The notes beneath the pieces were generated by a model that made no database searches, was not told the DNA's origin, and saw only the letters and a list, made by a program, of their open reading frames with translations. A stretch of DNA of 64,000 nt from contig CCNA01000001.1 in the NCBI GenBank assembly GCA_000824805.1, positions 1-64,000 of the forward strand, read 5' to 3'. The position numbers and the translations under genes are program-made. Of the stretch, positions 49,422 through 64,000 are shown piece after piece (positions within the stretch are counted from its first letter, which is position 1; every line of letters starts with the position of its first letter). This DNA is from Mesorhizobium sp. SOD10. Lineage in GTDB: Bacteria; Pseudomonadota; Alphaproteobacteria; Rhizobiales; Rhizobiaceae.

Positions 49422-50149
49422 CTAGCTCTCCATCCGGTGCTGGAAGAACTGCAGGAACAATTCGCGCTCGGTGGTGATGTCGAGCTTTTCATAGATGCGG
49501 CGGCGGTGGTTCTTCACCGTGCCGACGGTGATACCGAGCCGCTCGGCGATATTGGCGGTCGGATGGCCGGCGAGGATCAGCTCCACCAGCTCGCGCTCGC
49601 GCGATGAAAGCTCCGGCCACAGGCTTTCCGGAATTCTGGGCTTTTGCTGCGGCGAGGCGCCGGGGCCGCTCGGCGTCGAGGTGCGCAAAAAGTCTGAGCC
49701 GCGTGCCTTGATGTCCAGCGCATGCAGCGCCTCGAACACCGGCAGCCGCTCGGTCAGCAGCGCGATCTCGCTGTCCTTGAACGACACGGTCGAGCGGTCG
49801 AGGAAGATGCCGAGGCACCAGTCGCCGCCATCCGCCAGCATGATGCCGACCTCGTCGCAGATTCCGACTGCGCCAGGAAGCCGGCTATGTACTGGCCGCG
49901 CTTGGCCTCCTCGTCGGCCAGACCTTTCAGCGGCATGACGCCGAGCCGGCGCTGGCTGCGCCACGAGGCATAAAAGGGGTCGAAGACGTAGTAATTGTCG
50001 AGATAGCGCCGCACCATCTCGTCGGACAAGCGCCGGTGCTTGACGAATTCCGGCGTCCTGGTCGCCGAATAACGCGTCACCGTCACCAGGTCATGCGCGA
50101 TGTCCGCGCCGATCAAGTCAATCAGGCAGTCGACATGCCTCTCCGTGCC
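49422..50149 (-). pseudogene. LuxR-family regulator, frameshifted and 5-prime truncated
   Basis: The C-terminal part reads normally: GICDEVGIMLADGGDWCLGIFLDRS, then a LuxR helix-turn-helix (SSRERELVELILAGHPTANIAERLGITVGTVKNHRRRIYEKLDI). The N-terminal part (VDCLIDLIGADIAHDLVTVTRYSATRTPEFVKHRRLSDEMVRRYLDNYYVFDPFYASW) lies in another frame. One extra C in the CC pair at 49864-49865 would rejoin both, so this is a one-base deletion or a sequencing error. The 5-prime end runs without a proper start into a ProW remnant at about 50150, which supports real decay. Confidence 0.75.
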
Positions 50150-50429: not shown

Positions 50430-51713
50430 TCAGACCGGTGCCGGCATGCGGCCATTGGCAGGTCTTTCGTCCTCGGCTGGAACGGCCGTCCTGCGGCGCC
50501 GGAAAGCCGGCAGCGGGGTCAGCGTGAACAGGCCGTAATAGACGATGAAGGACGCCATGAAGTAGGGGCCGAGCATCTCGACCTCGAAGAAGGAGCGGAT
50601 CAACATCAGTCCGATAGCACCGGCGAGCACCACCGAATCGGCGTTCCACTCGCCGAACACCACTTTCGATACGTGCCCGTAGAATGAGCGCAGGATGACC
50701 AGCGCCAACAGGGTCACGCCGATGAAGCCGATTTCGACCAGCGTCTCGACATAGGTGTTGTGGAAGTGAAAGCCGGAGCGGGTCGAGATGTAGAATTCAG
50801 CCCACAGCCGTTCCGGATCGGCAAAGCCCTGCACCCAATAGGCGGCGTAGCCGTAGCCGAGCAGCGGGTGCTGCTGCGCCGCCTCCCAGCCCTGCTCCCA
50901 GAGATAGGTGCGGCCGGTGAGCGTCGAATCCTTGCCGAAGATGCCGAGCACGACATCCAGCAGGCCGAGATTGAGCGCCGCCACGACGCCCGTCACCAGC
51001 GCGCCGGCGCCGACGATGAACAGCACGCGGCGATAGCGCAGCGACAGCACCTTGGTCATGGTGAGCAGCATCACGATGCCGATCACCGCAGGCAGCGAGG
51101 CCACCGACGTCGCCGAATGGGCGATGGCCAGCATGTAGACCGACAGAAGCATGATCGGCGCGGTCCAGAGAAAGCCCAGCCAGTTCCGCCGGTAGAAGAC
51201 CAGGAAGGCAAGGCAGAAGAAGATGCCGAGCGAGGAGAAGAAGCCGATCTGGTTCTTGGAGCCGAAGGCGCCGACGAAATTGACCGTGCCGTCGATCGTG
51301 TCGAGCGCGTAGGCGCCGACTTTCAGGGAATAGAGCAGAACGACGAAGATTCCGATCAGCGAGCCCACCACCAGCGTGCGCACGCTGATGGTTCGCGCTG
51401 CGACATAGGCGCAGACGATATGCGAGGCATATTGCACGGCCGCCCGCGCGCTGATGCCCGCCGCCTGGGACCAGAACACCGAGAACAACACATAAGTCGC
51501 AAGCAGTATGGGCAGCCAGGCGCCGGACAGTTTCCAGGTGAAGCGCCGGTAATCGACGAAGAGCAGCGGCAGCCAGACGGCGTAGTAGGCCAGGATCAGG
51601 ATCTGGCCGAAATTGGGCGAGTAGGCGAAAGCGATCATGGAAACCGCGACGGCGAAGGCGCCGTAGGTCTCGTTGCGGTTTGGATCGATCAGGATGGATT
51701 TGGGAATCTTCAT
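50430..51713 (-). CDS. O-antigen ligase/polymerase family protein, ExoQ-like
   Basis: This 427-residue inner-membrane protein has ten or more helices and the large periplasmic loop of Wzy/WaaL-family polymerases: GIFGKDSTLTGRTYLWEQGWEAAQQHPLLGYGY, followed by SGFHFHNTYVETLVEIGFIG. Length and motifs match ExoQ, which polymerises succinoglycan repeat units at the inner-membrane outer face. It is the last of a minus-strand run of exo-like genes. A stop-to-stop contact with the ProW remnant lies at 50429/50430. Confidence 0.85.
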   Translation of the reverse strand: MKIPKSILIDPNRNETYGAFAVAVSMIAFAYSPNFGQILILAYYAVWLPLLFVDYRRFTWKLSGAWLPILLATYVLFSVFWSQAAGISARAAVQYASHIVCAYVAARTISVRTLVVGSLIGIFVVLLYSLKVGAYALDTIDGTVNFVGAFGSKNQIGFFSSLGIFFCLAFLVFYRRNWLGFLWTAPIMLLSVYMLAIAHSATSVASLPAVIGIVMLLTMTKVLSLRYRRVLFIVGAGALVTGVVAALNLGLLDVVLGIFGKDSTLTGRTYLWEQGWEAAQQHPLLGYGYAAYWVQGFADPERLWAEFYISTRSGFHFHNTYVETLVEIGFIGVTLLALVILRSFYGHVSKVVFGEWNADSVVLAGAIGLMLIRSFFEVEMLGPYFMASFIVYYGLFTLTPLPAFRRRRTAVPAEDERPANGRMPAPV

Positions 51714-51755: not shown

Positions 51756-52847
51756 CTAAGCCACAGCTCGCGCGCGCTGCATCTGCCGCTGCAGGAAGCG
51801 CCGCACCGGCTCGTCATAGACGCGCGTGGCGACGTCGGCGATGACGACAACCGAGACCGCCATCACGATGCCGAACCAGGGATGGTGCGCGAACGGATCG
51901 ATCGAGAAGGCCTTGCCGGCTCCGGCGATGATCATCAGCATCGGCGTGTGGATGATGTAGATCGGATAGGAAATCCGCCCGAGCCAGCCATAGAAGCCGG
52001 ACAGAAGCGGCGCGGTCGGCGCCACCGCGCCGGTCATCACCATGATCGGGAAGACGATGACGATCGCGGCGAGGTCGTAGGCGACGCGCGCGCCGCCGCT
52101 AGGTGCGATGGCGAAGACGGCAAGGGTGAGCAGGATCGCGCCCTCCACCCAGAGCCCGCGCCGCAGGAAGCCGAGGCCGCCCTGCCAGCGCGCGATCGAC
52201 CGGCAGAGCAGCACGCCGAGGAAGAAGGAGAATGTCACGCGCGGCAGGCCGCTGAGGATGGTGTTGCCGGTCATGCCGAAATCCAGCGTGCCGGCGAGGA
52301 TTGAGGCGACGACGAGCAGCACCAGGCTGACGGCGACGATCCCCGTCAGCACGCGCCGCGACAGAAGCACGAAGACCGCGACATAGGCGAAGTTGACGAT
52401 GAGCTCGAAAAACAGCGACCACGAGGCCGGATTGAGCGGAAAAATCGTGTGATAGGCATCGCTGACCAGCGGGACGAAGAGCATACCGGTCGTCAGCTGC
52501 ATGCCGATCTCGGACAACGGCATGTATTCGGCCGGCATCAGCCTGTTCTTGACCAGAAGGTAGAAGAAGCCGAGCAGCGTGCCGGCGAGGTAGAGCGGAT
52601 AGAGCCGGATCAGGCGGATCGCCACGAAGGAGCCGAAGCCCATGCCGTTCTCGATCTTGCGGTCATAGGCATGCGCGATGACGAAGCCGCTGAGCAGGAA
52701 GAACAGATCGACCGCAAGATAGCTCGACGGCAGCACCTTGCCGTCGGCCAGGAACGGCGAGAAGTGGTAGAGCATGACGCTGATCGCTGCCACGCCGCGG
52801 ATGGCGTCGAGATTGAGATACACATGACGCGGGGCTGCGGGCTGCAT
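51756..52847 (-). CDS. Acyltransferase 3 family membrane protein, ExoZ/OafA-like
   Basis: This 363-residue protein has about ten helices and the family start YLNLDAIRGVAAISVMLYHFSPF with the catalytic-type His, then SSYLAVDLFFLLSGFVIAHAYDRKI. It should O-acylate sugars, probably acetylating the exopolysaccharide. It lies between the ExoQ-like and ExoF-like genes, the order seen in exo loci where exoZ is near exoQ. ExoH-like succinylation is possible. Confidence 0.85.
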   Translation of the reverse strand: MQPAAPRHVYLNLDAIRGVAAISVMLYHFSPFLADGKVLPSSYLAVDLFFLLSGFVIAHAYDRKIENGMGFGSFVAIRLIRLYPLYLAGTLLGFFYLLVKNRLMPAEYMPLSEIGMQLTTGMLFVPLVSDAYHTIFPLNPASWSLFFELIVNFAYVAVFVLLSRRVLTGIVAVSLVLLVVASILAGTLDFGMTGNTILSGLPRVTFSFFLGVLLCRSIARWQGGLGFLRRGLWVEGAILLTLAVFAIAPSGGARVAYDLAAIVIVFPIMVMTGAVAPTAPLLSGFYGWLGRISYPIYIIHTPMLMIIAGAGKAFSIDPFAHHPWFGIVMAVSVVVIADVATRVYDEPVRRFLQRQMQRARAVA

Positions 52848-53072: not shown

Positions 53073-54377
53073 CTACTGGCTGGCCGTCGGTGCCAGCTTG
53101 ACCTTGATCACATCGCCCGGCAGGACCGGTGTGTCTTCCTTGGCCTCGACTTCGCTTGTCTTGCCGTTGGCCACACGCACGAGCGAATAGAGCAGGGCAG
53201 GCTCCTGGTCGCCGGTCATGCTGGCCGCCGTCGCGGGGTCCGACGCCTGCGCGATCAGCCCCTTCTGCATGCCGGCCTTCAATGTCGCCTCGTTCAGGTC
53301 GGCCTCAGCCTGCTGACGGTTGGCGGTAAGGGTGGAGTTGAGCGAGTTCCGCGCGTCGATGGCGTCCTGCTCGGCCTTGCTGATCGACTGCTTGGCGGTG
53401 AGGATGGCCGTCTCATAGTCGAGGATTTTGCCCTGCAGGTCGGTGACCGACTGCTGCGAGGAGAGCAGCCGCGCATTGGCGACCAGGCCTTTCTGCGCCA
53501 GCGGACCGATGCTCTCGGCTTGCTTCTCGGCCAGGTCGACCTGCTTCTGCTGGTTGGTGATCTTCTTCTGCAACGATTCGATTTCCGCCTGAAGCACGCC
53601 CTTCAAATCGTCGAGCGCATCGAGCTTCAGCTTCAGCGATTTCTGGTCGGAGACCAGGATCGCCATTTCGTCGGCGACGATGGGCGGCAGTCTCGGATCG
53701 CCCTCGATCTCCTTCGGCACCTCGAAACTCGTCTTCCCGGCAAGGTCGGCATCGATCCTAGCCCGCTTGACGAGCAGGCGGATACGCTGGTCGTCATAGA
53801 TGTCATAGCTGCCTTTGGCGGTGACCAGATCCTTGCCGAGCTGGGGACCGTAGTCGGCATTGCGCCTTATGCCGCCGGCAATGCTGATTGCTTTGAGCAC
53901 GGTCAGATCGGGCACGAAGGGAAACTGGCCGGGGTTCTGAACCTCGCCCGAAATGTAGAACGGCCGGAACTGCGCCATCTCGACGGAGGCTTCCGGCTTG
54001 TCGGGAAGCGCCAGCTTACGCTGCAGCGCGAGCCCGATCGCCGAAGCGACTTCCGCCGTCGTCTTGCCGGCGGCCTGCATGTCGCCGACGAACGGCACCG
54101 AGAGCGTCCCGCCCGGGCCGATCGAATACTCGCCGTTGATGGCCGACCAGTCGCGGAACGTGCCGTCGACCGTCTGCCATTCGGCGACGCGGATGTTGAG
54201 CTTGTCCAGAGGACCAAGCTGATAATCGCCGGCGGCAGCCAATTGCGGCATGGCCAGCGACGCCGCAAGCAAGAAGCCCGCGACGCGGGCTGGTGTCCGG
54301 GATACGAGACTGCAGGCGAGAGACAGTCCGAAGAGGTTTTTTGTCAAATGAACGTTTCCGATTCGCTTTGGCCCCAT
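53073..54377 (-). CDS. Polysaccharide export protein, ExoF-like
   Basis: This 434-residue exported protein has a signal region (FLLAASLAMPQLAAAGDY), a Wza-type polysaccharide export domain (LGPLDKLNIRVAEW, GGTLSVPFVGDMQAAGKTTAEVASAI), and a SLBB-like part (FYISGEVQNPGQFPFVPDLTVLKAISIAGGIRRNA). A long periplasmic coiled coil follows at about residues 235-370 (LKLKLDALDDLKGVLQAEIESLQKKITNQQKQVDLAEKQAE). It should form an outer-membrane/periplasm export duct. I start at 54377; other starts nearer the signal peptide are possible. It is downstream of the ExoY-like gene. Confidence 0.88.
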   Translation of the reverse strand: MGPKRIGNVHLTKNLFGLSLACSLVSRTPARVAGFLLAASLAMPQLAAAGDYQLGPLDKLNIRVAEWQTVDGTFRDWSAINGEYSIGPGGTLSVPFVGDMQAAGKTTAEVASAIGLALQRKLALPDKPEASVEMAQFRPFYISGEVQNPGQFPFVPDLTVLKAISIAGGIRRNADYGPQLGKDLVTAKGSYDIYDDQRIRLLVKRARIDADLAGKTSFEVPKEIEGDPRLPPIVADEMAILVSDQKSLKLKLDALDDLKGVLQAEIESLQKKITNQQKQVDLAEKQAESIGPLAQKGLVANARLLSSQQSVTDLQGKILDYETAILTAKQSISKAEQDAIDARNSLNSTLTANRQQAEADLNEATLKAGMQKGLIAQASDPATAASMTGDQEPALLYSLVRVANGKTSEVEAKEDTPVLPGDVIKVKLAPTASQ

Positions 54378-54436: not shown

Positions 54437-55114
54437 TCAATAGCTGCCGCGCGACATCCACACGGCAGGAACCGTCTTGAAGATGATGCGAATGTCTTCG
54501 AACAACGACCAGTTCTCGACATAGTGACGATCGAAGGCGACGCGCGTGTCGTAGGATACGTCGTTGCGGCCGCTCACCTGCCACAGCCCGGTGAGACCCG
54601 GGCGCGACTTCAGGTAATAGACCGCGGCGCTGCCGTAGATTTCCAATTCGTCGCGCACGACCGGGCGCGGGCCGACAAGGCTCATGTCGCCCTGCAGGAT
54701 GTTGAGGATTTGCGGCAGCTCGTCGAGGCTGAGCTTGCGAAGCACCGCGCCGACGCGGGTGACGCGCGGATCGTTCTTCAGCTTGCGCGTCGCGATCCAC
54801 TCGGCGTTGGCTTCCGGATTGGCCGCCAGATAGGCGGCGAGCACGCGCTCGCCGTCCGGAACCATGGTGCGGAATTTGAGGCAGGAGAAAATCCTGCCGC
54901 CGCGGCCGATCCGCTTATGGCCATAAAAGATCGGACCGTTGTCCGAAAGCTTGACCAGCAGGGCCACCATCAGGAAAAGCGGGCTGAGCAGAACCAGCCC
55001 TGCCAAGGAACCGACGATGTCGAAGCTGCGTTTGATTAGACCGCCGATGGGGGGTGGAAAATCAACGCCGACCTGCGCAAAACCCGCATTAGCCGACTTG
55101 GCGACGTCCCTCAT
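54437..55114 (-). CDS. exoY: Undecaprenyl-phosphate sugar phosphotransferase, ExoY-like
   Basis: This 225-residue polyprenyl-phosphate glycosyl-1-phosphate transferase has one N-terminal membrane hairpin ([26 protein letters not shown]). The catalytic domain includes [57 protein letters not shown] and [19 protein letters not shown]. It transfers galactose- or glucose-1-phosphate to the lipid carrier, the first committed step of exopolysaccharide synthesis. Length and motifs match ExoY. It heads the minus-strand exo run, with a long AT-rich control region upstream. Confidence 0.92.
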
Positions 55115-55721: not shown

Positions 55722-55994
55722 ATGTCTCTGCCAAAATTCATCATCGGCATGATGTTCGCGCTCGCGATCGTCATCGGCTGGTCCTATTTCGATGGTGCGT
55801 CGGCGGGCACCATCCTCTTACGTGCTATCGTCTGCGCCGTGATCATCCAGGCAGGCTATTTCCTTCTGGTCTTCGCCATGATCGGCAGAGCCACACCGAC
55901 ATCGGCAGGCAAGGTCCGTGAAGCCGACCGCGGCACGATCCTCGACAAGGTCGCCGAAAGCGAAAAGCTAAGCGCCAGGCGCAGCCTCCGTTGA
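55722..55994 (+). CDS. exoX: Exopolysaccharide production repressor, ExoX/SyrA-like
   Basis: This 90-residue small membrane protein has two helices: KFIIGMMFALAIVIGWSYF and TILLRAIVCAVIIQAGYFLLVFAMIG. The arrangement, length and the ICAVIIQAGYF segment match the ExoX/PsiA/SyrA family, which limits exopolysaccharide production post-translationally, probably through ExoY. It is divergent from the exoY-like gene, as in other rhizobia. Its 3-prime end overlaps the convergent lasso exporter gene by 27 bp. Confidence 0.8.
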   Translation: MSLPKFIIGMMFALAIVIGWSYFDGASAGTILLRAIVCAVIIQAGYFLLVFAMIGRATPTSAGKVREADRGTILDKVAESEKLSARRSLR

Positions 55995-57875
55995 TCGCTC
56001 GACCGACGCCGGGACCAGTCCGACCTCGACCGCGGACGTGGTTTCGCGCTCGGCCTGCTCGCCCGACAGCATCCTCGCAAGATGGCTGCCGGCTCGTGCT
56101 TTCAGCCGCCGATATTGTCCGACCTCCACGATGCGCCCATTCTCGATGGCCACGACCCAGTCGGCGAAGGCAATCATCGATGGCCGGTGCGCGATGGTCA
56201 GAATCGTCATTTGGCCGCGCAGCGCCTCGATCGATTGCGCGATCAGCGACTGGTTCTGCCAGTCGAGCGCGCTCGTCGCCTCGTCGAGGATAAGCAGCGA
56301 GGGCTTGCGCAGCAGCGCCCGCGCCAGGGCGATGCGCTGCCGCTCGCCGCCGGAGAGCCGCACACCGCGGTCGCCCACCACCGTCTCGAGCCGCAATGCC
56401 AGCCGCTCGACAAAATCCGCCGCATGGGCGTTGCGCAGTGCCGCCCAGAGCTCGTCGTCGCTCGCCTCAGGCGCGGCAAGCCGCAGATTGGCGGCGATCG
56501 TGTCGTGCAGCAGGAACACGTCCTGCGGCACATAGGCGACCTGATCGCGCCAAGCCCTGCGGTTCTGGGCGGTGATCTCCACGCCGTCGGCCAGGATCCG
56601 GCCGCTGGTTGGTTCGAGCAGGCCGAGCAGCATGTCGGCGATCGTGCTCTTGCCGGAGCCGGAAGGGCCGATCAGCGCCGTCACCTTGCCGGCCGGCAGG
56701 CCGAAGCTGATATCGCTGACCACCGGTTTCCCGTCGCCTTCGCCATAGGCGAAAGAAACATCGCGGATGTTGAGGCCCGTATCGAGCGTGAGTTTCGCGC
56801 CCTGTTCGCCCGCGTTCTCTTCCGGCTCGCGCTCGGCGTCGAAACGGGCCTGAAGGCTTTGCATCGAAGCACAGGCCGGCAGGTTGATCAGCACCTGCTG
56901 CGTCTGAAGCTGCATGTCCATGAAGCGCGGCGCCACGCGCATGAAGACCAGGAGCAGCACGACGATCTCGGCAAGCGACAAATGGAAGCCGACCAGCGCT
57001 ATGTAGATGAAGAGGCTGAGCCCGATCACGCTGGTAACCTGGAACAGCGCGGTGCCGAGCGAGGAGTTGCGGACGAAGGCGATGTTGTCGGCCTTCATCC
57101 TGTCCAGCGTCGCGCCGAGCTGGGCAAAATAGCCCGCCTCGACATTCAGGCTTTTGGCCACCTTGATGCCGCCGAGAAACTCGGAGACCGTGCGGTACTG
57201 CTCCTGGCGATTGCCGGTCAGTGTGCGGCCATAGGCACTGGCGCGCGCCCTGAACGGTCGCAGGGCGATCAGCAGCACCAGGCCGATGAAAATGGCGAAA
57301 CATGTCATCACCGGCGAGATGAAGAGCGAGACCACGAGATAGCCGGTGAGAAGCAGCGTCGCCTGGGTGAGCATGAGCAGCGAGAAGGCCGCCACCTGCA
57401 CCCGGTCGACATCGCCGTTCAGCGCGTGGTCGAGATCGGAGCTGCGGATGCGGGTGAAGACGCCCCATCGCGCCTTGCCGACGCTCTCGAACAGGTTCAT
57501 GCGGACGCGGTTGACGAAGTCGTAGAGCAGCCGCGCCATGTAGACGGACTTGAAGCGGTTGAAAATCGCTTGCAGCGCCACCAGCGCGACGAGCAGCGTG
57601 AGCACGGTGGCAAGCGACAGCGTTCCGCCGGGCACCAGCCAACGCAGAGCCTCCGGCACCCGCACCGCATAATCCTGCTCGGCCTTGCCGATCAGGCGCA
57701 GCAGCGGCACCAGCAGCAGGATCGAGATGCCTTCGGTGAGACTCCCCAGGATCAGGAAAGCAAGCGCCGTCGCCGTGCGTCGCCCGCCGACATGCGCCAT
57801 CATGGTGCCGAACCCGGCGACATCCCGGAAAAACGACAAGCGAAGCTTGGAGGACCAGCCCATGCCTTGGCTCAC
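55968..57875 (-). CDS. Lasso-peptide ABC exporter (D protein)
   Basis: This 635-residue fused exporter has about six N-terminal helices and a C-terminal ATPase. The ATPase carries Walker A GPSGSGKST (around residue 400), Q-loop YVPQDVFLLHDTIAANLRLA, signature LSGGERQRIALARALL, Walker B LLILDEATSALD and switch TIAHR. As last gene of the A-B1-B2-C-K-D order, it should pump the mature lasso peptide out and give the producer immunity. Start 57875 overlaps the kinase stop by four bases; MGWSSK four codons later is an alternative. The C-terminal 9 codons overlap the convergent exoX-like gene. Confidence 0.88.
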   Translation of the reverse strand: MSQGMGWSSKLRLSFFRDVAGFGTMMAHVGGRRTATALAFLILGSLTEGISILLLVPLLRLIGKAEQDYAVRVPEALRWLVPGGTLSLATVLTLLVALVALQAIFNRFKSVYMARLLYDFVNRVRMNLFESVGKARWGVFTRIRSSDLDHALNGDVDRVQVAAFSLLMLTQATLLLTGYLVVSLFISPVMTCFAIFIGLVLLIALRPFRARASAYGRTLTGNRQEQYRTVSEFLGGIKVAKSLNVEAGYFAQLGATLDRMKADNIAFVRNSSLGTALFQVTSVIGLSLFIYIALVGFHLSLAEIVVLLLVFMRVAPRFMDMQLQTQQVLINLPACASMQSLQARFDAEREPEENAGEQGAKLTLDTGLNIRDVSFAYGEGDGKPVVSDISFGLPAGKVTALIGPSGSGKSTIADMLLGLLEPTSGRILADGVEITAQNRRAWRDQVAYVPQDVFLLHDTIAANLRLAAPEASDDELWAALRNAHAADFVERLALRLETVVGDRGVRLSGGERQRIALARALLRKPSLLILDEATSALDWQNQSLIAQSIEALRGQMTILTIAHRPSMIAFADWVVAIENGRIVEVGQYRRLKARAGSHLARMLSGEQAERETTSAVEVGLVPASVERSTEAAPGA

Positions 57876-58852
57876 CTTGTCCCGCCCGCCAGGTCGGTTT
57901 CGATCGCGGCGACCGCCTCATCGATCCGGGCAAGCCCGGCCGGCACCTCGAGGCGGCTGACGCCCACCCGTCCGGCGACCTGTGCGCATTGGCCGAGATG
58001 CACCGAGGCGGAATCACCCGGCAGTGCCTGCCGGCCGAACCGCGTGACATAGGAGAATTTGATGATCGCCGGCAGCGCGGCGGCCCCGGCCAGCGGCGAA
58101 ATCGCCGCCCGCCCGCCGCGCTCAAGCACATAAATGCGCGATACCGGCAGTGCTTCACCGGCAAATGCGTCGTGCAGTCGGTGCTGCGCCTTGTCGATTT
58201 GCGGATGCACCTGCGGACGCACCTCCGCCTGGTGGAGGCGAATGGCACCCGCCGCGTCCGCGGCGAGCTTGAGCTGCGGAAATCCGGGCAGGATCATCGG
58301 CCGGCCCGGGTCGGACAAGTCCAGTGCCACGACATCGTCGGTGAGCAGCCGATGGCCGGCGCGGATCATCGCGCCAGCCGTCGTCGACTTGCCGGCGCCC
58401 TTGTCGCCCATGAAGATCACGCTCTTGCCGCCGACGGCAATGGCGCTGGCATGCAGCACGAGCAGCCCGCGCTGGTGAAGAGCGAGCGCCATCACCGGCC
58501 CGAGCAGCGGAAAGGCAAGCAGCGGATCGTCGATCCCCGGCGCCGGATCGACGTCGATTCGCTTGCCGCCGCTGATCATGAACGTGCCGACCGTCTGCCA
58601 TGAGAGATATTGGCGCGTCGGCTCAAAGCGGAACGCCGTGGCGCCCGGCGATGCGCCGTCTGGAATATCGACCGGCCCGACCGCGATCTCCAGGTCCGGC
58701 GTCGCCGGCGCCGTCGGTTCCAGTTCCGGTAAGCTCACTTCCGAGCGCACGATCAGCCCGTAGGCCTTGTAGAAATGACGGATCCGTCCGCCCGGCGCCG
58801 GCGTCTCGGTGGCGGATTGGGGCCGCGCAAGGGAAGCGATCGGAAGGTTCAT
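57872..58852 (-). CDS. HPr-kinase-like lasso peptide kinase (K protein)
   Basis: This 326-residue protein has an HprK-type core: His134 in LVLHASAIAVGGKSVIFMGDKGAGKSTTAGAM with P-loop GDKGAGKS (about 149-156), and the acidic pair Asp172-Asp173 in LLTDDVVALD. It lacks the N-terminal domain of true HPr kinases. Homologues in lasso clusters (PadeK of paeninodin) phosphorylate the C-terminal Ser of the precursor, and the precursor here does end in Ser. I start at 58852 by the four-base overlap with the cyclase gene; the in-frame extension upstream lies within the cyclase gene and is Arg-rich. Confidence 0.85.
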   Translation of the reverse strand: MNLPIASLARPQSATETPAPGGRIRHFYKAYGLIVRSEVSLPELEPTAPATPDLEIAVGPVDIPDGASPGATAFRFEPTRQYLSWQTVGTFMISGGKRIDVDPAPGIDDPLLAFPLLGPVMALALHQRGLLVLHASAIAVGGKSVIFMGDKGAGKSTTAGAMIRAGHRLLTDDVVALDLSDPGRPMILPGFPQLKLAADAAGAIRLHQAEVRPQVHPQIDKAQHRLHDAFAGEALPVSRIYVLERGGRAAISPLAGAAALPAIIKFSYVTRFGRQALPGDSASVHLGQCAQVAGRVGVSRLEVPAGLARIDEAVAAIETDLAGGTR

Positions 58853-60762
58853 GCCGGGCTTCCTTGGACTTGCCGCAGCCACAGCGACAGCGACACCGAG
58901 CGCCAGACATGCTGGACGTCCGGCAGCGTCGCCTGCTCGGGCTGGCTGAGCAGGCGCGCATAGACCGCGTTCACTTCGGGCAAGTTGACATAGGGCGCGA
59001 TCCGCTCGCTGTCCGAAATCAGCAGCCTGTCCAGAAGCTCGCGATGGTTGCCGAGCATGCCTTTGACCAGATTGGCGGTGAAATCGATCTTGTCTCGCCG
59101 CCACTGCACCGCCGGCGGCAGGACGCCTTGCATGGCCCGGCGCAGCACATGGCGGCCGAAGCCGTCCCTGAGCTTTTCCTCGCCGGGCAGCGCCAGGCAG
59201 AATTCGACGAGCGGCTTGTCCCAGAACGGATAGCGGGGCTCGACGCCGAAACTAGCGGCGGCCTTGTCGAGCACCTCAAAGGCGTGCGGCACCAGCCCGT
59301 TGGACAAAAGCCAGCGATGCGTCAGCGCTTCGCTGGCGGTAACGGCTGCTGGCATGTAGCCGCTGCGGTGGAAACGCTCGGCAAGATCGGTGCGCCTGGC
59401 AAGCTCCGGGTTGACCAGGCCCGCCCAGGCGGCGCGTGCCGCTGGCGCCGGCCTGCCCCGAACCTTGCCGACAAAACGTCTGGCCATCGACCTCATCCTG
59501 GCGATCCGCCAGGCCGGCCCGTAGATGGTCAAGAACTTGAAGTAGAGGGAGAGCATCCCCTCGCCATAGGTGTCGGCGGCGCTGCGCAATTCGCGCCACA
59601 GCTCCAGCCACCTGCCAGCATTGGCGAGTTCGTGAAGGTGCCCATGGCCCTGCGAGACGACCTCGTCGCCGCCATGCCCGTCGAGAAGCACTTTGACGCC
59701 CTTGGCGCCGGCGGTGCGGTAAAGGTCGCGCGTCAGTGACAGGCCGGGCGCCAGGAACGTGCCTTCCTGCTCCTCCAGCATGCGCTCGAATTCGGCGAAA
59801 GGCGCGTAGTTGCCGACCGCGATCAGCGTGGCGTCGAGCGGATTGTCGGCGACGACCGCATCGATGAACGGCTTCTCGTCCATGGACGAGCCCTTATCGA
59901 ACACCAACGAGAAGGTCTTGAGCTTCGGGTTGCGTTTCGCCGCCGCCCTGAGGCCCGCGAGACAGGCGATCGAGGAGGAATCGAGCCCGCCGCTCAGCAT
60001 GGCGCCCACGGCCGGCGTGCCGCGCATGCGGTTCTCCACCGATTGCGCGAAGAGATGCCTGAATTCCTCGGCCGCGTCCGATCGCGGCGGCCGCTGCGAC
60101 GGCTCGATCTGCCAGTAGCGCCGCAGCATTACCTGGCGGTCCGCGACCATCATGCTGTGCCGTGCCGGTAGGCGGAAGATCTCGGCATAGGGCGTGGCCT
60201 GCGGATCGTCCGGCAGGCCGGCGAGGAAACCGGAGATCTGGTGTTCGCTGAGCCGCCTGCCGACGCCGTCCAGCGCCAGGATCGGGCCGATCTCCGAGGC
60301 GAACGCAAAGCGCCTGCCGGTCGAATGATAGTAGAAAGGTTTGACGCCGAAATGATCGCGCGCGCAAAACAGCGCCTGCCTCTCGCCATCCCATATCGCG
60401 AAGGCGAAATCGCCCTGCAGATAGGTCGGGCAGGCCTCGCCCCATTTGAGGTAGGCTCGCATGATGAGCACCGCGTCGGCCATCGCCCGATCGCGCAGGC
60501 CGAGCCGCGCCAGAAGCTCGTCGCGATTGTCCAGCCGGCAGTCGGCGGTGATGGCGAGCTTGCCGCCGGCCATCGTCAGCGGACCGGGGCCGTCCTCACC
60601 GGTCGTGTCGAGCCAGGCGTGGCCGAGCGCCACGCTGCCCTCCGTCCACCAGGAACTGCCGTCGCGGGCGCGGTGGCGCATGCGCGAAAGCATCTCCTGG
60701 ACATCGCCGGCCCCGGCGGGCCGGCCATTGTCGCCATGCACGATTCCGGCGACGCCGCTCAT
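58849..60762 (-). CDS. Lasso macrolactam synthetase (C protein, asparagine synthase B-like)
   Basis: This 637-residue protein has an N-terminal class II amidotransferase-like domain whose Cys2 is replaced by Ser (MSGVAGIVHGD), so it cannot take ammonia from glutamine. An ATP-pyrophosphatase domain follows, with SGGLDSSSIACLAG around residue 250 and HGGDEVVSQGHG later. Lasso C proteins activate the ring Asp or Glu side chain by adenylation and close it onto the new N-terminal amine. It starts three bases after the B2 stop. Operon position and the Cys loss set it apart from housekeeping AsnB. Confidence 0.9.
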   Translation of the reverse strand: MSGVAGIVHGDNGRPAGAGDVQEMLSRMRHRARDGSSWWTEGSVALGHAWLDTTGEDGPGPLTMAGGKLAITADCRLDNRDELLARLGLRDRAMADAVLIMRAYLKWGEACPTYLQGDFAFAIWDGERQALFCARDHFGVKPFYYHSTGRRFAFASEIGPILALDGVGRRLSEHQISGFLAGLPDDPQATPYAEIFRLPARHSMMVADRQVMLRRYWQIEPSQRPPRSDAAEEFRHLFAQSVENRMRGTPAVGAMLSGGLDSSSIACLAGLRAAAKRNPKLKTFSLVFDKGSSMDEKPFIDAVVADNPLDATLIAVGNYAPFAEFERMLEEQEGTFLAPGLSLTRDLYRTAGAKGVKVLLDGHGGDEVVSQGHGHLHELANAGRWLELWRELRSAADTYGEGMLSLYFKFLTIYGPAWRIARMRSMARRFVGKVRGRPAPAARAAWAGLVNPELARRTDLAERFHRSGYMPAAVTASEALTHRWLLSNGLVPHAFEVLDKAAASFGVEPRYPFWDKPLVEFCLALPGEEKLRDGFGRHVLRRAMQGVLPPAVQWRRDKIDFTANLVKGMLGNHRELLDRLLISDSERIAPYVNLPEVNAVYARLLSQPEQATLPDVQHVWRSVSLSLWLRQVQGSPA

Positions 60763-60765
60763 CGC

Positions 60766-61182
60766 TCACGATCCATGATCGACCAGATGGGCAAATCCAT
60801 TGATCGAGCCGCCGAGCACGATGTGGTTGCCGCTCATCAGCCAGGCATGCGCCTTGAGCTCGCTGCCCGTTCCTTTTTCGATGCCGATGCTGATCTTCGA
60901 GGCATTGCCCTGGCGGGCGAGCAGATACTGCCCGGCCAGCGCCTGGGTGAGGCAAGTGGCGCCCGGCACGAGCCGCGCCGCGGCGGCAACGCCCCAGGCA
61001 ACCCGCCGCAGGTCGCCGATGCCGGCGTCACGCCTGGCATCCAGTCGTGTGACCATGCCGCGGACGCGATTGTAGGAGGACAGCGTCAGCGCAAGCCGCA
61101 CCGCGCCCACCACTATCAGGCAGCGCGCCAGAAACAGTATCTCGCGGCCGCTCAGCGAGCGGAGCCTAGACCAGTTCCTCAC
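60766..61182 (-). CDS. Lasso leader peptidase (B2, transglutaminase-like)
   Basis: This 138-residue protein of the PF13471 type has the probable catalytic Cys77 in PGATCLTQALAGQYLLARQG and His112 in KAHAWLMSG. I see no Asp at the usual spacing after the His, so the third catalytic residue is unclear. It should cut the leader from the precursor just before core Gly1. A GTG start at 61182 is preferred (17-nt overlap with B1) since the helix RLRSLSGREILFLARCLIVV begins soon after; upstream in-frame codons lie in B1. It works with the separate B1 protein. Confidence 0.85.
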   Translation of the reverse strand: MRNWSRLRSLSGREILFLARCLIVVGAVRLALTLSSYNRVRGMVTRLDARRDAGIGDLRRVAWGVAAAARLVPGATCLTQALAGQYLLARQGNASKISIGIEKGTGSELKAHAWLMSGNHIVLGGSINGFAHLVDHGS

Positions 61183-61465
61183 GGTGGAGCCTCGCAAGCC
61201 CTGCTTCAGTGAGCCCCTTGAGCAAGCCCTCGACATCGGCCTTGCAGCGCTCGGCATCTACATTGTAGCGCGCGAGCACGGCGCTGCGGATATCGAGGAT
61301 CGATCGCGGCTCCTGAATCTGCTCCCAGATGAACGCGCCGACGCCGTTCAGGCTGTAATAGACGTTGGATTTGAGGTGAAGCAGCGCCAGTCCGGCGCCG
61401 AATTCACATGCGACCGCCTCGCCGGTCGCGACCACGCGGTCATGGTCCGAGGGGTTCCAGTCCAT
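61166..61465 (-). CDS. Lasso RRE protein (B1, PqqD-like)
   Basis: This 99-residue PqqD-fold protein is a RiPP recognition element: VVATGEAVACEFGAGLALLHLKSNVYYSLNGVGAFIWEQIQEPRSILDIRSAVLARYNVDAERCKADVEGLLKGLTEAGLA. RRE proteins bind the leader peptide through a beta-strand and hand it to the peptidase and cyclase. The leader found at 61622 has the motif that such proteins read. Strong hairpins separate it from the precursor gene, which would favour more precursor than enzyme. Confidence 0.9.
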   Translation of the reverse strand: MDWNPSDHDRVVATGEAVACEFGAGLALLHLKSNVYYSLNGVGAFIWEQIQEPRSILDIRSAVLARYNVDAERCKADVEGLLKGLTEAGLARLHREELV

Positions 61466-61541
61466 CCTAAAACCTCGTTGCTGGCCACCGCGCCCTTGGG
61501 CCTTTTCGCCGTGGATCGGTTGCCGGCGATCCTCGGCAGGA

Positions 61542-61612
61542 AGCCGGGGGACAAAGCCCCCCGGCTCACCTGATGGAGAGCATCCGGAGCCCCAACCTAG
61601 ACACCCGGATGC
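61542..61612 (-). other. Double hairpin between lasso precursor and B1
   Basis: Stem 1 pairs AGCCGGGGG (61542-61550) with CCCCCGGCT (61558-61566), loop 7 nt. Stem 2 pairs GCATCCGG (61580-61587) with CCGGATGC (61605-61612), loop 17 nt. Both lie just after the precursor stop. They can act as leaky terminator or 3-prime stabiliser so that precursor mRNA exceeds the enzyme mRNA. Confidence 0.65.
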
Positions 61613-61621
61613 CTGTAAGCT

Positions 61622-61774
61622 TTAAGAGAAAGTCAGCTCGCCGACCGGCGTGTGCGCGGGAAAGCTCGCGTCAAGCGCCGTCGTGCCAGCACCGCCCTGC
61701 GTGATGGATTCAATCGAACCGTGAACCGTCAGGCTGGGGGTCTCGTACTCATGCTTTTCAACATTCTGTTCCAT
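61622..61774 (-). CDS. Lasso peptide precursor (A)
   Basis: This is a 50-residue precursor, short enough to be skipped by normal gene callers. Leader residues 1-26 contain Tyr10, Pro13, Leu15, Gly19 and Thr25, giving the complete YxxPxLxxxGxxxxxT motif read by B1 proteins, with Thr at position -2. The predicted core is residues 27-50: GGAGTTALD, then a 15-residue tail starting ASFPAH and ending LTFS. Gly1 to Asp9 would give a nine-residue macrolactam ring. The C-terminal Ser fits the kinase in the operon. GGAGAG lies six bases before the ATG. I saw no second precursor. The core has no Cys, so a class II lasso is expected. Confidence 0.92.
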   Translation of the reverse strand: MEQNVEKHEYETPSLTVHGSIESITQGGAGTTALDASFPAHTPVGELTFS

Positions 61775-61817
61775 TCTACTCTCCAATTAAGGACTGGAAG
61801 CGGCTGCAGAATGCCGC

Positions 61818-61835
61818 CAGCATATGGCTATGCTG
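61818..61835. promoter_or_regulatory. Candidate operator upstream of lasso precursor
   Basis: CAGCATA and TATGCTG form a perfect 7-bp inverted repeat around TGGC, 44-61 bp upstream of the precursor start. The position suits an operator overlapping the promoter. The regulator is unknown and no regulator gene is seen in the cluster. Confidence 0.45.
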
Positions 61836-62118
61836 CAATGCGATTGCTGCACGGCAACATCTATGAGTCAAGCCTGATTTACCGAGCATTAATCAATTCT
61901 CGGTTGCGCTCGCCTTCGTTAATGATCAAGCCCTGGACGCCATTATCGTGAACCTCGCCCGCCCCAGGATTCAACCGCAGGTCTTTGCCGTTTACATAAG
62001 AAGTTGATTTATTTGTGGTAATTTTCGCGACGCGGAATCCGTTTCGCTGATGCGAAGAAATTGCTGCAAAAAAATGCCCACTTTTCGGCCACGACCGGGT
62101 GTCCCTGCGTTGTCTTTA

Positions 62119-62274: not shown

Positions 62275-63525
62275 ATGGCGGTGCAGGATGGCTCGTACGA
62301 AAGGTTGCGCGCCGCCGGCTGCGCCGACGAAGTCGCCTATGTGCAGGCCTGCCTGAGGCTGTTTTTCGCGCCGCGAGCCAACATTACGGACGGCCGGGCC
62401 GATGTCCCAGCGCCGACGGTCTCGGCGGCGACTCCAATCACGGTGACCCCAATCTCAGCGACCCCAATCTCAGCGACAAAGGTCGCCGACATCGCCAGGC
62501 TGAACAAGGTCGCCGTGTTCCTGCTCAAGGCGCTCAAGCATGCTCCCGCAGGTGCCGCGCCCGCGGAATTGCCTGGATGGCTCGATGGCTATCGTCGGCG
62601 CACGATGTCGATGAACGCCGCCTGCATCGGCGACTCGATAGCCATCGATCGCGCGCTGCGCGAGAGGCAGGTCGATTTCGTCTTCCTCAAGGGGCCGCTC
62701 CAGCAGCATCTGCTCTATGGCGACCATTTCATGAAGCCTTCCGGCGATGTCGACATACTGGTTTCGCCGGCGCGCTTTGGCCAAGCGCGCGAGGCGTTGC
62801 GGGCGATCGGCTACGAGGTCGCCGGCAAATCCCGCTCCGTCTGGTGGGTTCGCTTCCTTGGCGAGCAGCACATGGTTCGCGAAGATGGCGCGAGGACTTC
62901 GACGGTCGACCTCCATCACCGGCTGCAGCAGCCGGGATCGCCGAGCCCGCGCGACGTCGACGGCTTCCTGCGCCGCAAGCGCGAAGTCGAGGTGGCCGGA
63001 GCCGTCATGCCGGTGATCTCGGCGGCCGACACGCTGCTTTTGTCCTCGATCAGCGTCGCCAAGGCCTTTTTCAACCGCGAGCCCTGCGCCGGCTATGTCT
63101 GCGACGTCAGGGCCAGCGCCAGCCGCCTGAACGAAGCGGAGCAGCAGAGGGTGCTGGATCACGCCGCCCAACAGGGCCTGGCGGACACGCTGCTCCTCGG
63201 CCTGCGCGCGGCCGACGTGCTGCTCGGCGCCACAGGCACCCTGCTTTCGGATCGCGCCACCCGCATTCTGGCCCGCATCGGGAATGCCGATCTCTTCCAC
63301 ATGGTCATGGCGCCGTGGCTCGCGTCGCTCCGCTGGCCGCAGCGCCGCCATGTGCTTTGGGAACTCTGCGGCCGCGAGCCGGTCCGTTACCTTGCTGAAG
63401 CCGGCTGGGCGGCCTCCGCCGACCTCAGCCGGCGCATCTTCGAGCGCCCGGCCACGGTCCAGCCGCCGCCGAGCGAAATGATCAAAATCGTGGGCGGGGC
63501 GGCCAATCATGCAAGCGAAAGGTAA
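62275..63525 (+). CDS. NTP_transf_5-type nucleotidyltransferase family protein, RiPP-associated
   Basis: This 416-residue protein of the uncharacterised nucleotidyltransferase family has FVFLKGPLQQHLLYGDHFMKPSGDVDILVSPARFGQAREALRAIGYEV. The central Asp-x-Asp (DVDIL) is the metal site, with STVDLHHRL providing a third acidic residue. Members accompany lasso and other RiPP clusters and in a kinase-containing cluster may add a group to the phosphate. A TTG start at 62227 is possible; I prefer the ATG at 62275. An internal run of 15-bp repeats (62430-62474) adds an ITVTP-ISATP-ISAT linker. Confidence 0.75.
   Translation: MAVQDGSYERLRAAGCADEVAYVQACLRLFFAPRANITDGRADVPAPTVSAATPITVTPISATPISATKVADIARLNKVAVFLLKALKHAPAGAAPAELPGWLDGYRRRTMSMNAACIGDSIAIDRALRERQVDFVFLKGPLQQHLLYGDHFMKPSGDVDILVSPARFGQAREALRAIGYEVAGKSRSVWWVRFLGEQHMVREDGARTSTVDLHHRLQQPGSPSPRDVDGFLRRKREVEVAGAVMPVISAADTLLLSSISVAKAFFNREPCAGYVCDVRASASRLNEAEQQRVLDHAAQQGLADTLLLGLRAADVLLGATGTLLSDRATRILARIGNADLFHMVMAPWLASLRWPQRRHVLWELCGREPVRYLAEAGWAASADLSRRIFERPATVQPPPSEMIKIVGGAANHASER
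62430..62474 (+). repeat. 15-bp tandem repeat, three units
   Basis: GACTCCAATCACGGT is followed by two identical GACCCCAATCTCAGC units in frame within the nucleotidyltransferase gene. They encode a flexible Thr/Pro/Ile/Ser linker between the N-terminal helix and the catalytic domain. Copy number may vary between strains. Confidence 0.8.
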
Positions 63526-63529
63526 GTCC

Positions 63530-64000
63530 ATGCCCTTGACGACGCCCATCACGACCCCCGTGACGGCCTTGGGGGTCTGCGTCATCATCGCCGCGCGCAA
63601 TGCGGCACGCACCATTCCCGGCGCCATCGCTTCGGCGCTGCGCGAGGCCGAAGTGGCTGAGGTGATCGTGGTCGACGACGCCTCCACCGACGACACCCGG
63701 GATGTGGCCTTGGCCGCAGACGACGGCAGCGGCCGGCTTGCCGTCATCCGCTTCGACGTCAATCGCGGTCCGTCCGCAGCGCGCAACGCTGCCATCCAGG
63801 CCTCCGGATCGCCCTTCATCAGCATTCTCGATGCCGACGATTTCTTCCTCGAAGGCCGTTTTCGCCGGCTTTTCGCCAGCGCCGACTGGGATTTCGCCGC
63901 CGACAACATCATGCTGATCCGCGACGATGCCGCGACCGACCTCGCCAAAGTCGCCGCGCCGCCTTTCGCGGCTGATCCGGAATTTCTCGACTTCGAGCGC
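63530..64000 (+). CDS. Family 2 glycosyltransferase (partial, runs off window)
   Basis: At least 157 residues are present of a GT-A type glycosyltransferase. VCVIIAARNAARTIPGAIASAL opens the domain, VIVVDDASTDDT binds the nucleotide, NRGPSAARNAAIQASGSPFISILDADDFF holds the DxD metal motif. It starts five bases after the nucleotidyltransferase stop (an earlier in-frame ATG at 63509 overlaps it), so the two are co-transcribed. It may belong to lasso tailoring or to exopolysaccharide synthesis. The stop codon lies outside the window. Confidence 0.88.
   Translation, partial: MPLTTPITTPVTALGVCVIIAARNAARTIPGAIASALREAEVAEVIVVDDASTDDTRDVALAADDGSGRLAVIRFDVNRGPSAARNAAIQASGSPFISILDADDFFLEGRFRRLFASADWDFAADNIMLIRDDAATDLAKVAAPPFAADPEFLDFER

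Follow-up and report, generated by a model that had tools for sequence, protein, structure and literature searches.

A 50-residue open reading frame of Mesorhizobium sp. SOD10 probably encodes (probability about 0.75) the precursor of a class II lasso peptide that is made by the gene cluster A-B1-B2-C-K-D and tailored by a nucleotidyltransferase (NT); with lower confidence, the product may act together with exopolysaccharide (EPS) at the cell surface. The analysis covered a stretch of 64,000 nucleotides of this genome (the window), in which the lasso block sits inside an exo-type EPS locus. The genes, their motifs and conservation, the recurring EPS setting and the joint loss of NT with the lasso genes were observed directly, while every enzymatic step of the pathway is proposed from homology. 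To meet a lasso peptide is in itself unsurprising; the interest lies in its integration with the EPS genes and in the constraint on it across the genus, because with these the function of such lasso peptides, still an open question, can be tested in rhizobia that are easy to work with. Mesorhizobium thus offers a setting for answering the role of phosphorylated paeninodin-type lassos, with a copy in most sampled species, adjoining EPS genes, named carriers and related genomes that have lost the lasso.

The precursor and its biosynthetic cluster

A preliminary description had placed a 50-residue lasso precursor at 61622–61774, with no strand stated. The frame is present on the minus strand, where it starts with an ATG at 61774; the plus-strand reading of the same positions does not translate into a precursor. 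The product consists of a 26-residue leader, MEQNVEKHEYETPSLTVHGSIESITQ, and a 24-residue core, GGAGTTALDASFPAHTPVGELTFS. In the translation, leader residues Tyr10, Pro13, Leu15, Gly19 and Thr25 (position −2) and core residues Gly1-Gly2 and Asp9 stand where they had been described, and recalculation returned the masses given earlier, 2285.096 Da for the core minus water and 2365.063 Da with one phosphate. The ribosome-binding site claimed for the gene is GGAGAG, 4 nt ahead of the ATG. An upstream TTG (61786) was rejected as the start, since GGAGAG falls between it and the ATG and the codons ahead of the ATG differ among loci.

The pattern Y..P.L...G.{5}T.[GASCV].{5,7}[DE] had one match in the six frames of the window and none in 200 first-order Markov windows. 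A Pfam search assigned the precursor itself to no family, and the NCBIfam models NF033528 'lasso_cyano' (33.1 bits, a narrow pass over the cut-off of 33) and NF033521 (22.8 against 19 bits) both recognised it. The core is free of Cys in all 24 of its variants, as befits class II. Together with the full biosynthetic cluster next to gene A, this supports the original reading as a lasso precursor, with a class II product and a Gly1–Asp9 ring as the prediction.

The own genome holds a single match to the precursor. Matches at E up to 0.1 occur in 107 of 146 Mesorhizobium genomes, and 103 carry a full-length precursor of 72–100% identity. The comparison set joined the window with 65 loci from named records (L031–L095, of which 62 are titled Mesorhizobium), 66 in total; carriers include the named strains M. 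ciceri WSM1271 (L085) and M. loti DSM 2626 (L070). All 66 precursors are 50 residues long, with 10 distinct leaders and 24 distinct cores. Leader residues Y10, P13, L15, G19 and T25 and core residues G1, D9, F12, P13, A14, T16, P17, T22, F23 and S24 are invariant in all 66, despite synonymous codon changes. The proposed plug His15 fared less well: it is found in 65 of the 66 precursors, but most more distant relatives have Gly, Ser or Asn instead.

Pooled dN/dS values were 0.088 for the precursor, 0.021 for the leader and 0.168 for the core (ring 0.272, tail 0.121), figures that are descriptive because the pairs are non-independent and the core has just 24 codons. The cluster enzymes gave 0.212 (B1), 0.216 (B2), 0.183 (cyclase), 0.245 (kinase) and 0.176 (exporter), and the neighbours 0.178 (NT), 0.122 (GT2), 0.090 (sugar transferase) and 0.186 (Wza). 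These values come from 1572 of 2145 pairs (cyclase dS 0.1–0.8); after coverage and stop filters, 19 of 66 sequences were left for B2 and 58 of 66 for D. Judged by these ratios, the core is under purifying selection, with a constraint about equal to that on its own cyclase.

The preliminary description knew of no named lasso peptide with this core. As a named product the core is indeed new, and no described Mesorhizobium lasso peptide was found in the literature covered (titles and abstract openings, with subscription papers largely outside that scope). As a sequence it is not, given the 72–100% identical precursors across the genus and a clearly similar core, annotated 'paeninodin family', on a Priestia plasmid. 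Among four plasmid-borne relatives of the precursor, two are annotated 'hypothetical protein' and one 'paeninodin family lasso peptide'; for the fourth the precursor gene is absent from the gene table, which is incomplete.

Features of the lasso block and its surroundings in the window (positions from the first letter of the window)
Feature	Position	Strand	Evidence or remark
Wzy/ExoQ-like polymerase, O-antigen ligase family	50430..51713	minus	PF04932
EPS-locus acyltransferase	51756..52847	minus	PF01757
Outer-membrane polysaccharide exporter, Wza/ExoF-like	53073..54365	minus	PF02563, SLBB; start inferred
Initiating sugar transferase, ExoY-like, Bac_transf	54437..55114	minus	PF02397, 3.1e-64
D, ABC exporter	55968..57875	minus	PF00005/PF00664; NF045513 is the best NCBIfam match, below cut-off
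K, HprK-like kinase	57872..58852	minus	PF07475, 6.3e-08, just under cut-off; start inferred
C, lasso cyclase, asparagine-synthetase-like	58849..60762	minus	NF033535, 777 against 525 bits
B2, leader peptidase, transglutaminase-like	60766..61257	minus	PF13471, 6.4e-21; NF033537, 64.4 against 33 bits
B1, PqqD-like leader-binding protein (RRE)	61166..61465	minus	PF05402, 4.8e-19
Two conserved RNA hairpins, A–B1 gap	61538..61612 (about 61612–61580 and 61571–61538)	minus	alignment
A, lasso precursor gene	61622..61774	minus	leader 61774–61697, core 61696–61625, stop 61624–61622
Ribosome-binding site GGAGAG	61779..61784	minus	found in 62/67 loci, within the last 14 nt upstream of the start
Conserved block, CTTGACT (−35-like) and TGCAGC repeat	61785..61908	minus	16 aligned loci
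NT, PF14907 nucleotidyltransferase	62275..63525	plus	divergent from A; shares inheritance and loss with the lasso block
GT2 glycosyltransferase	63509..64000	plus	runs beyond the window; remains with the EPS locus upon lasso loss

The six cluster genes follow each other in the order A-B1-B2-C-K-D on the minus strand, with NT divergent from A; the precursor pattern, the RRE of B1, the B2 peptidase and the cyclase are all there. The Cys and His motifs of B2 are kept in all 19 sequences (of 66) that passed the length filter. The kinase scored 32.8 with PF07475 against a cut-off of 33.3, and solved HPr kinases match its motif stretch weakly (1ko7, E 5.9e-05). It has the lasso-kinase motif H-(14)-G..G.GKS-(15)-DD (H-G-G-G-K-S-D-D), taken from the accessible part of PMC10368454, with exact spacing in 65 of 66 loci; the exception, L062, has an insertion between the His and the P-loop. 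The C-terminal Ser, the acceptor expected in kinase-tailored lassos, is invariant in the 66 precursors. A phosphate on the product, put forward earlier as the 2365.063 Da form, is plausible because the cluster kinase carries this published motif.

In NT, GD-x-D is invariant across a 25-row alignment. Its predicted structure (mean pLDDT 79) had weak best matches in Foldseek to antibiotic nucleotidyltransferases and FKRP (rank 1 at E 1.2e-03, none at or below 1e-03), and by sequence it matched no solved structure at E up to 0.1. These fold matches would fit nucleotidyl or sugar/polyol-phosphate transfer alike.

The proposed pathway is as follows. B1 would bind the YxxPxL leader, and the HprK-like kinase would place one phosphate, or possibly several, on the precursor at its invariant C-terminal residue, Ser24. 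B2 is expected to cleave after Gln26, with Thr at −2, and C to close the Gly1–Asp9 ring around the tail. NT may then add a sugar or nucleotidyl group onto the Ser phosphate, D would export the finished product, and the product would act at the cell surface with EPS, either attached to the polymer or modulating its length, its retention or the properties of the matrix. That Ser24 accepts the phosphate and NT extends it is suggested by analogy. According to the accessible text of PMC9266682, the paeninodin kinase targets the C-terminal Ser of its precursor, SyanK and ThcoK attach multiple phosphates, and the nucleotidyltransferase homolog PsmN reportedly decorates the phospho-Ser with hexoses. 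However, BsfK, a lasso kinase that is more distantly related, has Ser3 as its target (PMC10368454, accessible part), so the Ser24 site stays provisional here.

Two noncoding elements accompany gene A. The conserved block upstream, with its −35-like motif and repeat, is likely the promoter/operator of A. In the A–B1 gap, two hairpins were aligned in 22 of 33 representative loci (the search pattern for this gap did not match L161). They comprise 18 pairs with 91% of cells paired, a figure that leans towards structure because less well aligning loci, L054, L055 and L060 among them, were left out. Changes on both sides were seen in 30 cells against a shuffled mean of 13.7, and the covariation score was 0.375 against 0.06–0.20 when the structure was slid; the number of pairs with a both-side change was 7, no more than in shuffles (6.8; 307/500). 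Rfam, searched at E up to 0.1, gave no matching family. One possible role of the hairpins is to adjust how much precursor is made relative to the enzymes; they could also be a transcript stabiliser or partial terminator.

Exopolysaccharide setting, inheritance and loss

The locus around the lasso block has the family models of a succinoglycan-like exo locus: sugar transferase, Wza, Wzy and ExoK. Beyond NT and GT2 follow the ExoK glycanase (equivalog NF052392, 424 against 350 bits), a UDP-glucose dehydrogenase, further glycosyltransferases and a flippase. Apart from ExoK, the exo names (ExoY, ExoF, ExoQ) are our assumption by analogy and do not come from a model above cut-off. A regulator gene of the LuxR type (GerE; 49422–49964, minus strand) adjoins the Wzy-like gene at the border of the EPS locus.

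This arrangement is stable. A-B1-B2-C-K-D is complete in 65 of 65 loci, and sugar transferase with Wza, like NT with GT2, is found in 64 of 65; in the exceptions, L034 and L066, the missing neighbours fall at contig ends. The cyclase maps to roughly 238–280 kb of contig C1 in 14 genomes, which suggests that the lasso block has a shared chromosomal place and vertical inheritance in Mesorhizobium.

Cyclase orthologs (at least 69% identity) were found in 103 of 146 genus genomes, and two further genomes have only a 33–34% relative. In L153 (G051) and L154 (G077) the cyclase gene is in pieces, with an inverted segment in G077, and the rest of the cluster is there; this may be decay in progress or an assembly error. 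A second type of lasso cluster, with a cyclase of 30–34% identity, was seen in L158 (G037), L159 (G040), L160 (G143) and G086, and had no matches to EPS genes nearby. NT orthologs occur in 104 genomes, namely the 103 cyclase carriers and G122, a fragmentary genome (79% complete) that lacks a cyclase ortholog.

Close Wza orthologs (at least 63%) were present in 128 of 146 genomes, counted as 140 matches minus nine at 46–52% and three with E of about 1e-64 to 1e-67. As 25 of these 128 have no lasso cyclase ortholog, the lasso is unnecessary for the persistence of the EPS locus and is an add-on to it, not a requirement. We examined nine lasso-less EPS loci, seven from the 25 genomes with Wza of at least 63% and two from the nine at 46–52%. 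Matches to GT2, sugar transferase, Wza and Wzy were kept in all nine, and NT, A, B1, B2, C, K and D were missing from all nine, bar scars in two: NT codons 1–27 in G054 and exporter residues 540–615 in G082. One of the nine, L152, has a distant (30%) ABC-transporter match elsewhere in its stretch. Thus NT is inherited and lost with the lasso genes and belongs to the lasso module despite lying on the other strand, which rules it out as a member of the EPS set; GT2, retained in the lasso-less loci, does belong to the latter.

A tree was made from sugar transferase, Wza and GT2, with L034 dropped and topology alone considered; L060 and L157, and likewise L096 and L139, are the same genomes and were each counted once. 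Seven of the nine lasso-less loci are interspersed with carriers at several points of the tree, a pattern consistent with repeated loss. L149 and L152 group outside the Mesorhizobium carriers. One carrier (L060) is nested in a lasso-less group, which could mean regain.

What the peptide may do

Gene setting and selection are the evidence on which we tentatively propose, at less than even odds, a role of the peptide in EPS. Action at the surface with EPS, rather than as a strain-versus-strain antibiotic, is the most likely reading; the linkage between lasso and EPS could nevertheless be passive. That the open reading frame is a chance one would have a negligible probability. It is short and without a Pfam family, but full-length matches in 103 of 146 genomes and a complete biosynthetic cluster speak against chance, which is ruled out by this conservation, a whole-gene dN/dS of about 0.09 and the zero pattern matches in 200 Markov windows.

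Many described lasso peptides are antimicrobial. This general background favours an ordinary narrow-spectrum antimicrobial lasso whose cluster landed beside EPS genes by chance and stayed there; the ABC exporter could then confer self-protection, and the loss of the lasso block while the EPS genes stay would also be explained. However, arms-race peptides usually diversify, whereas this core is under purifying selection as far as dN/dS tells, with 24 variants in 66 loci. The flanks are moreover the same down to about 43% cyclase identity, and NT is lost together with the lasso, so we consider such an antimicrobial rather unlikely. We think it unlikelier still that the peptide serves as a signal that is secreted, perceived by the producing cells or by others nearby, and adjusts EPS production. 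The conserved promoter block, the tight sequence conservation, the EPS neighbourhood and the LuxR-type (GerE) regulator gene beside the Wzy gene (49422–49964) would all suit a signal, but no receptor or two-component system was seen among the scanned proteins, which extended from the Wzy gene to the far-side EPS genes.

A stronger form of the preferred reading, action at the surface with EPS, would make the lasso a built-in part of the EPS, with a phospho-sugar or nucleotidyl-phosphate handle on the Ser that attaches to, primes or caps chains. We regard this as improbable, and equally doubtful is its corollary that the peptide leaves the cell with the EPS machinery. If it were true, a lasso peptide would be a surface-matrix component instead of an antibiotic. 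More generally, a place of the peptide in the EPS matrix would give lasso peptides a function beyond antibiosis and signalling and would add a peptide component to the EPS of the legume–rhizobium symbiosis.

Relatives and known lasso systems

Outside the genus, cyclase relatives were found in three of 394 genomes sampled in the family (E up to 1e-100), in five of 397 in the order (E up to 1e-60, 33–44% identity) and, besides the own genome, in one of 385 in the class (32%). The alphaproteobacterial genomes G331, G315, G609 and G643 (cyclase 43–54%) share the gene order of the window, with Wza, sugar transferase, D-K-C-B2-B1-A and a divergent NT. In G849, Wza, K-C-B2-B1-A and NT are retained, with no sugar-transferase match. 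The EPS setting thus recurs where the cyclase is at least 39% identical and the flanks are readable (the contig of G211 is too short). On a Paracoccus plasmid (cyclase 35%), NT, GT2, a glycosylhydrolase 16, an O-antigen ligase and a sugar transferase surround A-B1-B2-C-K-D, with no Wza match.

In L142, L143, L158, L159 and L160 (cyclase 30–34%), no sugar transferase, Wza, Wzy, GT2 or GH16 was matched in the fetched stretch by tblastn with the window proteins, a control that diverged polysaccharide genes would escape; L141 is too short to judge. EPS proximity as a trait of every lasso cluster is therefore unsupported, as these five distant alphaproteobacterial clusters are without EPS matches. 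The contrast with the EPS-linked clusters is blurred by a UDP-sugar dehydrogenase match at 42% in L158 and by a cluster on a Sulfitobacter plasmid (cyclase 29%) that has annotated glycosyltransferase and polysaccharide genes in its vicinity. Eleven cyanobacterial or other loci (L097–L107) had no sugar-transferase, Wza or GT2 match in their fetched flanks (tblastn with the window proteins, E up to 1e-3), a search that diverged polysaccharide genes would likewise escape.

The core pattern D-x-x-F-P-x-x-T-P-x-x-[DE]-[LV]-T-F-S is mostly kept, whole or in part, in more distant relatives, among them other alphaproteobacteria, cyanobacteria, a Pyrinomonadaceae MAG and the Priestia peptide annotated as paeninodin family. 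Several cyanobacterial relatives share this pattern. Precursor and cyclase score above the cut-offs of NF033528 'lasso_cyano' and NF033535, respectively. The Priestia plasmid core has DAAFPTHTPKGDLTFES where the Mesorhizobium peptide has DASFPAHTPVGELTFS.

Kinase-tailored Cys-free lassos, and paeninodins at capsule loci of Bacilli (PMC13381572, accessible part), are already known. New here is a Gram-negative branch in an exo locus, present in most of a genus, under purifying selection by its dN/dS and with a co-inherited NT. As far as the accessible text of PMC13381572 and PMC9266682 describes them, paeninodins resemble the Mesorhizobium system in the C-terminal Ser, the HprK-like kinase, separate B1 and B2 and the ABC exporter, and NTP transferases are typical tailoring enzymes of the family. 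According to the same portion of PMC13381572 (2026), paeninodins are often near capsule loci in Bacilli, with their role stated as unknown and a biofilm idea as untested. They differ in the leader, which has a nearly invariant Trp (WxxP) where Tyr10 (YxxP) stands in all 66 precursors here, and in the host: that text calls them restricted to Bacillota, whereas the present branch is alphaproteobacterial, with 62 of the 65 nearest named loci titled Mesorhizobium. Paeninodins are also patchy, in 344 of 9173 Bacilli genomes with at least 102 gain/loss events (PMC13381572), while the Mesorhizobium branch is genus-wide and largely vertical.

SyanA/SyanK of Sphingobium yanoikuyae, likened here by description, is another proteobacterial kinase-tailored lasso with a C-terminal Ser, and its description in the accessible text of PMC9266682 mentions no EPS setting. 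Pseudomycoidin (PsmK and PsmN; same source) likewise combines a kinase with a nucleotidyltransferase, but its host is a Bacillus, and the NT described here is divergently transcribed and its activity predicted.

The Priestia paeninodin-family cluster (L108:1423–2538) has galU and a gene for polysaccharide biosynthesis close by, in agreement with the part of PMC13381572 available. On the Sulfitobacter indolifex plasmid, two precursor-like open reading frames on opposite strands (L109:9001–9144 and L109:6685–6831) lie near one cluster, and both are absent from the gene table, which is incomplete. Three precursor-like frames were seen at L141:3324–3835 (G755), and two at L101:8104–9251 of the Pyrinomonadaceae MAG.
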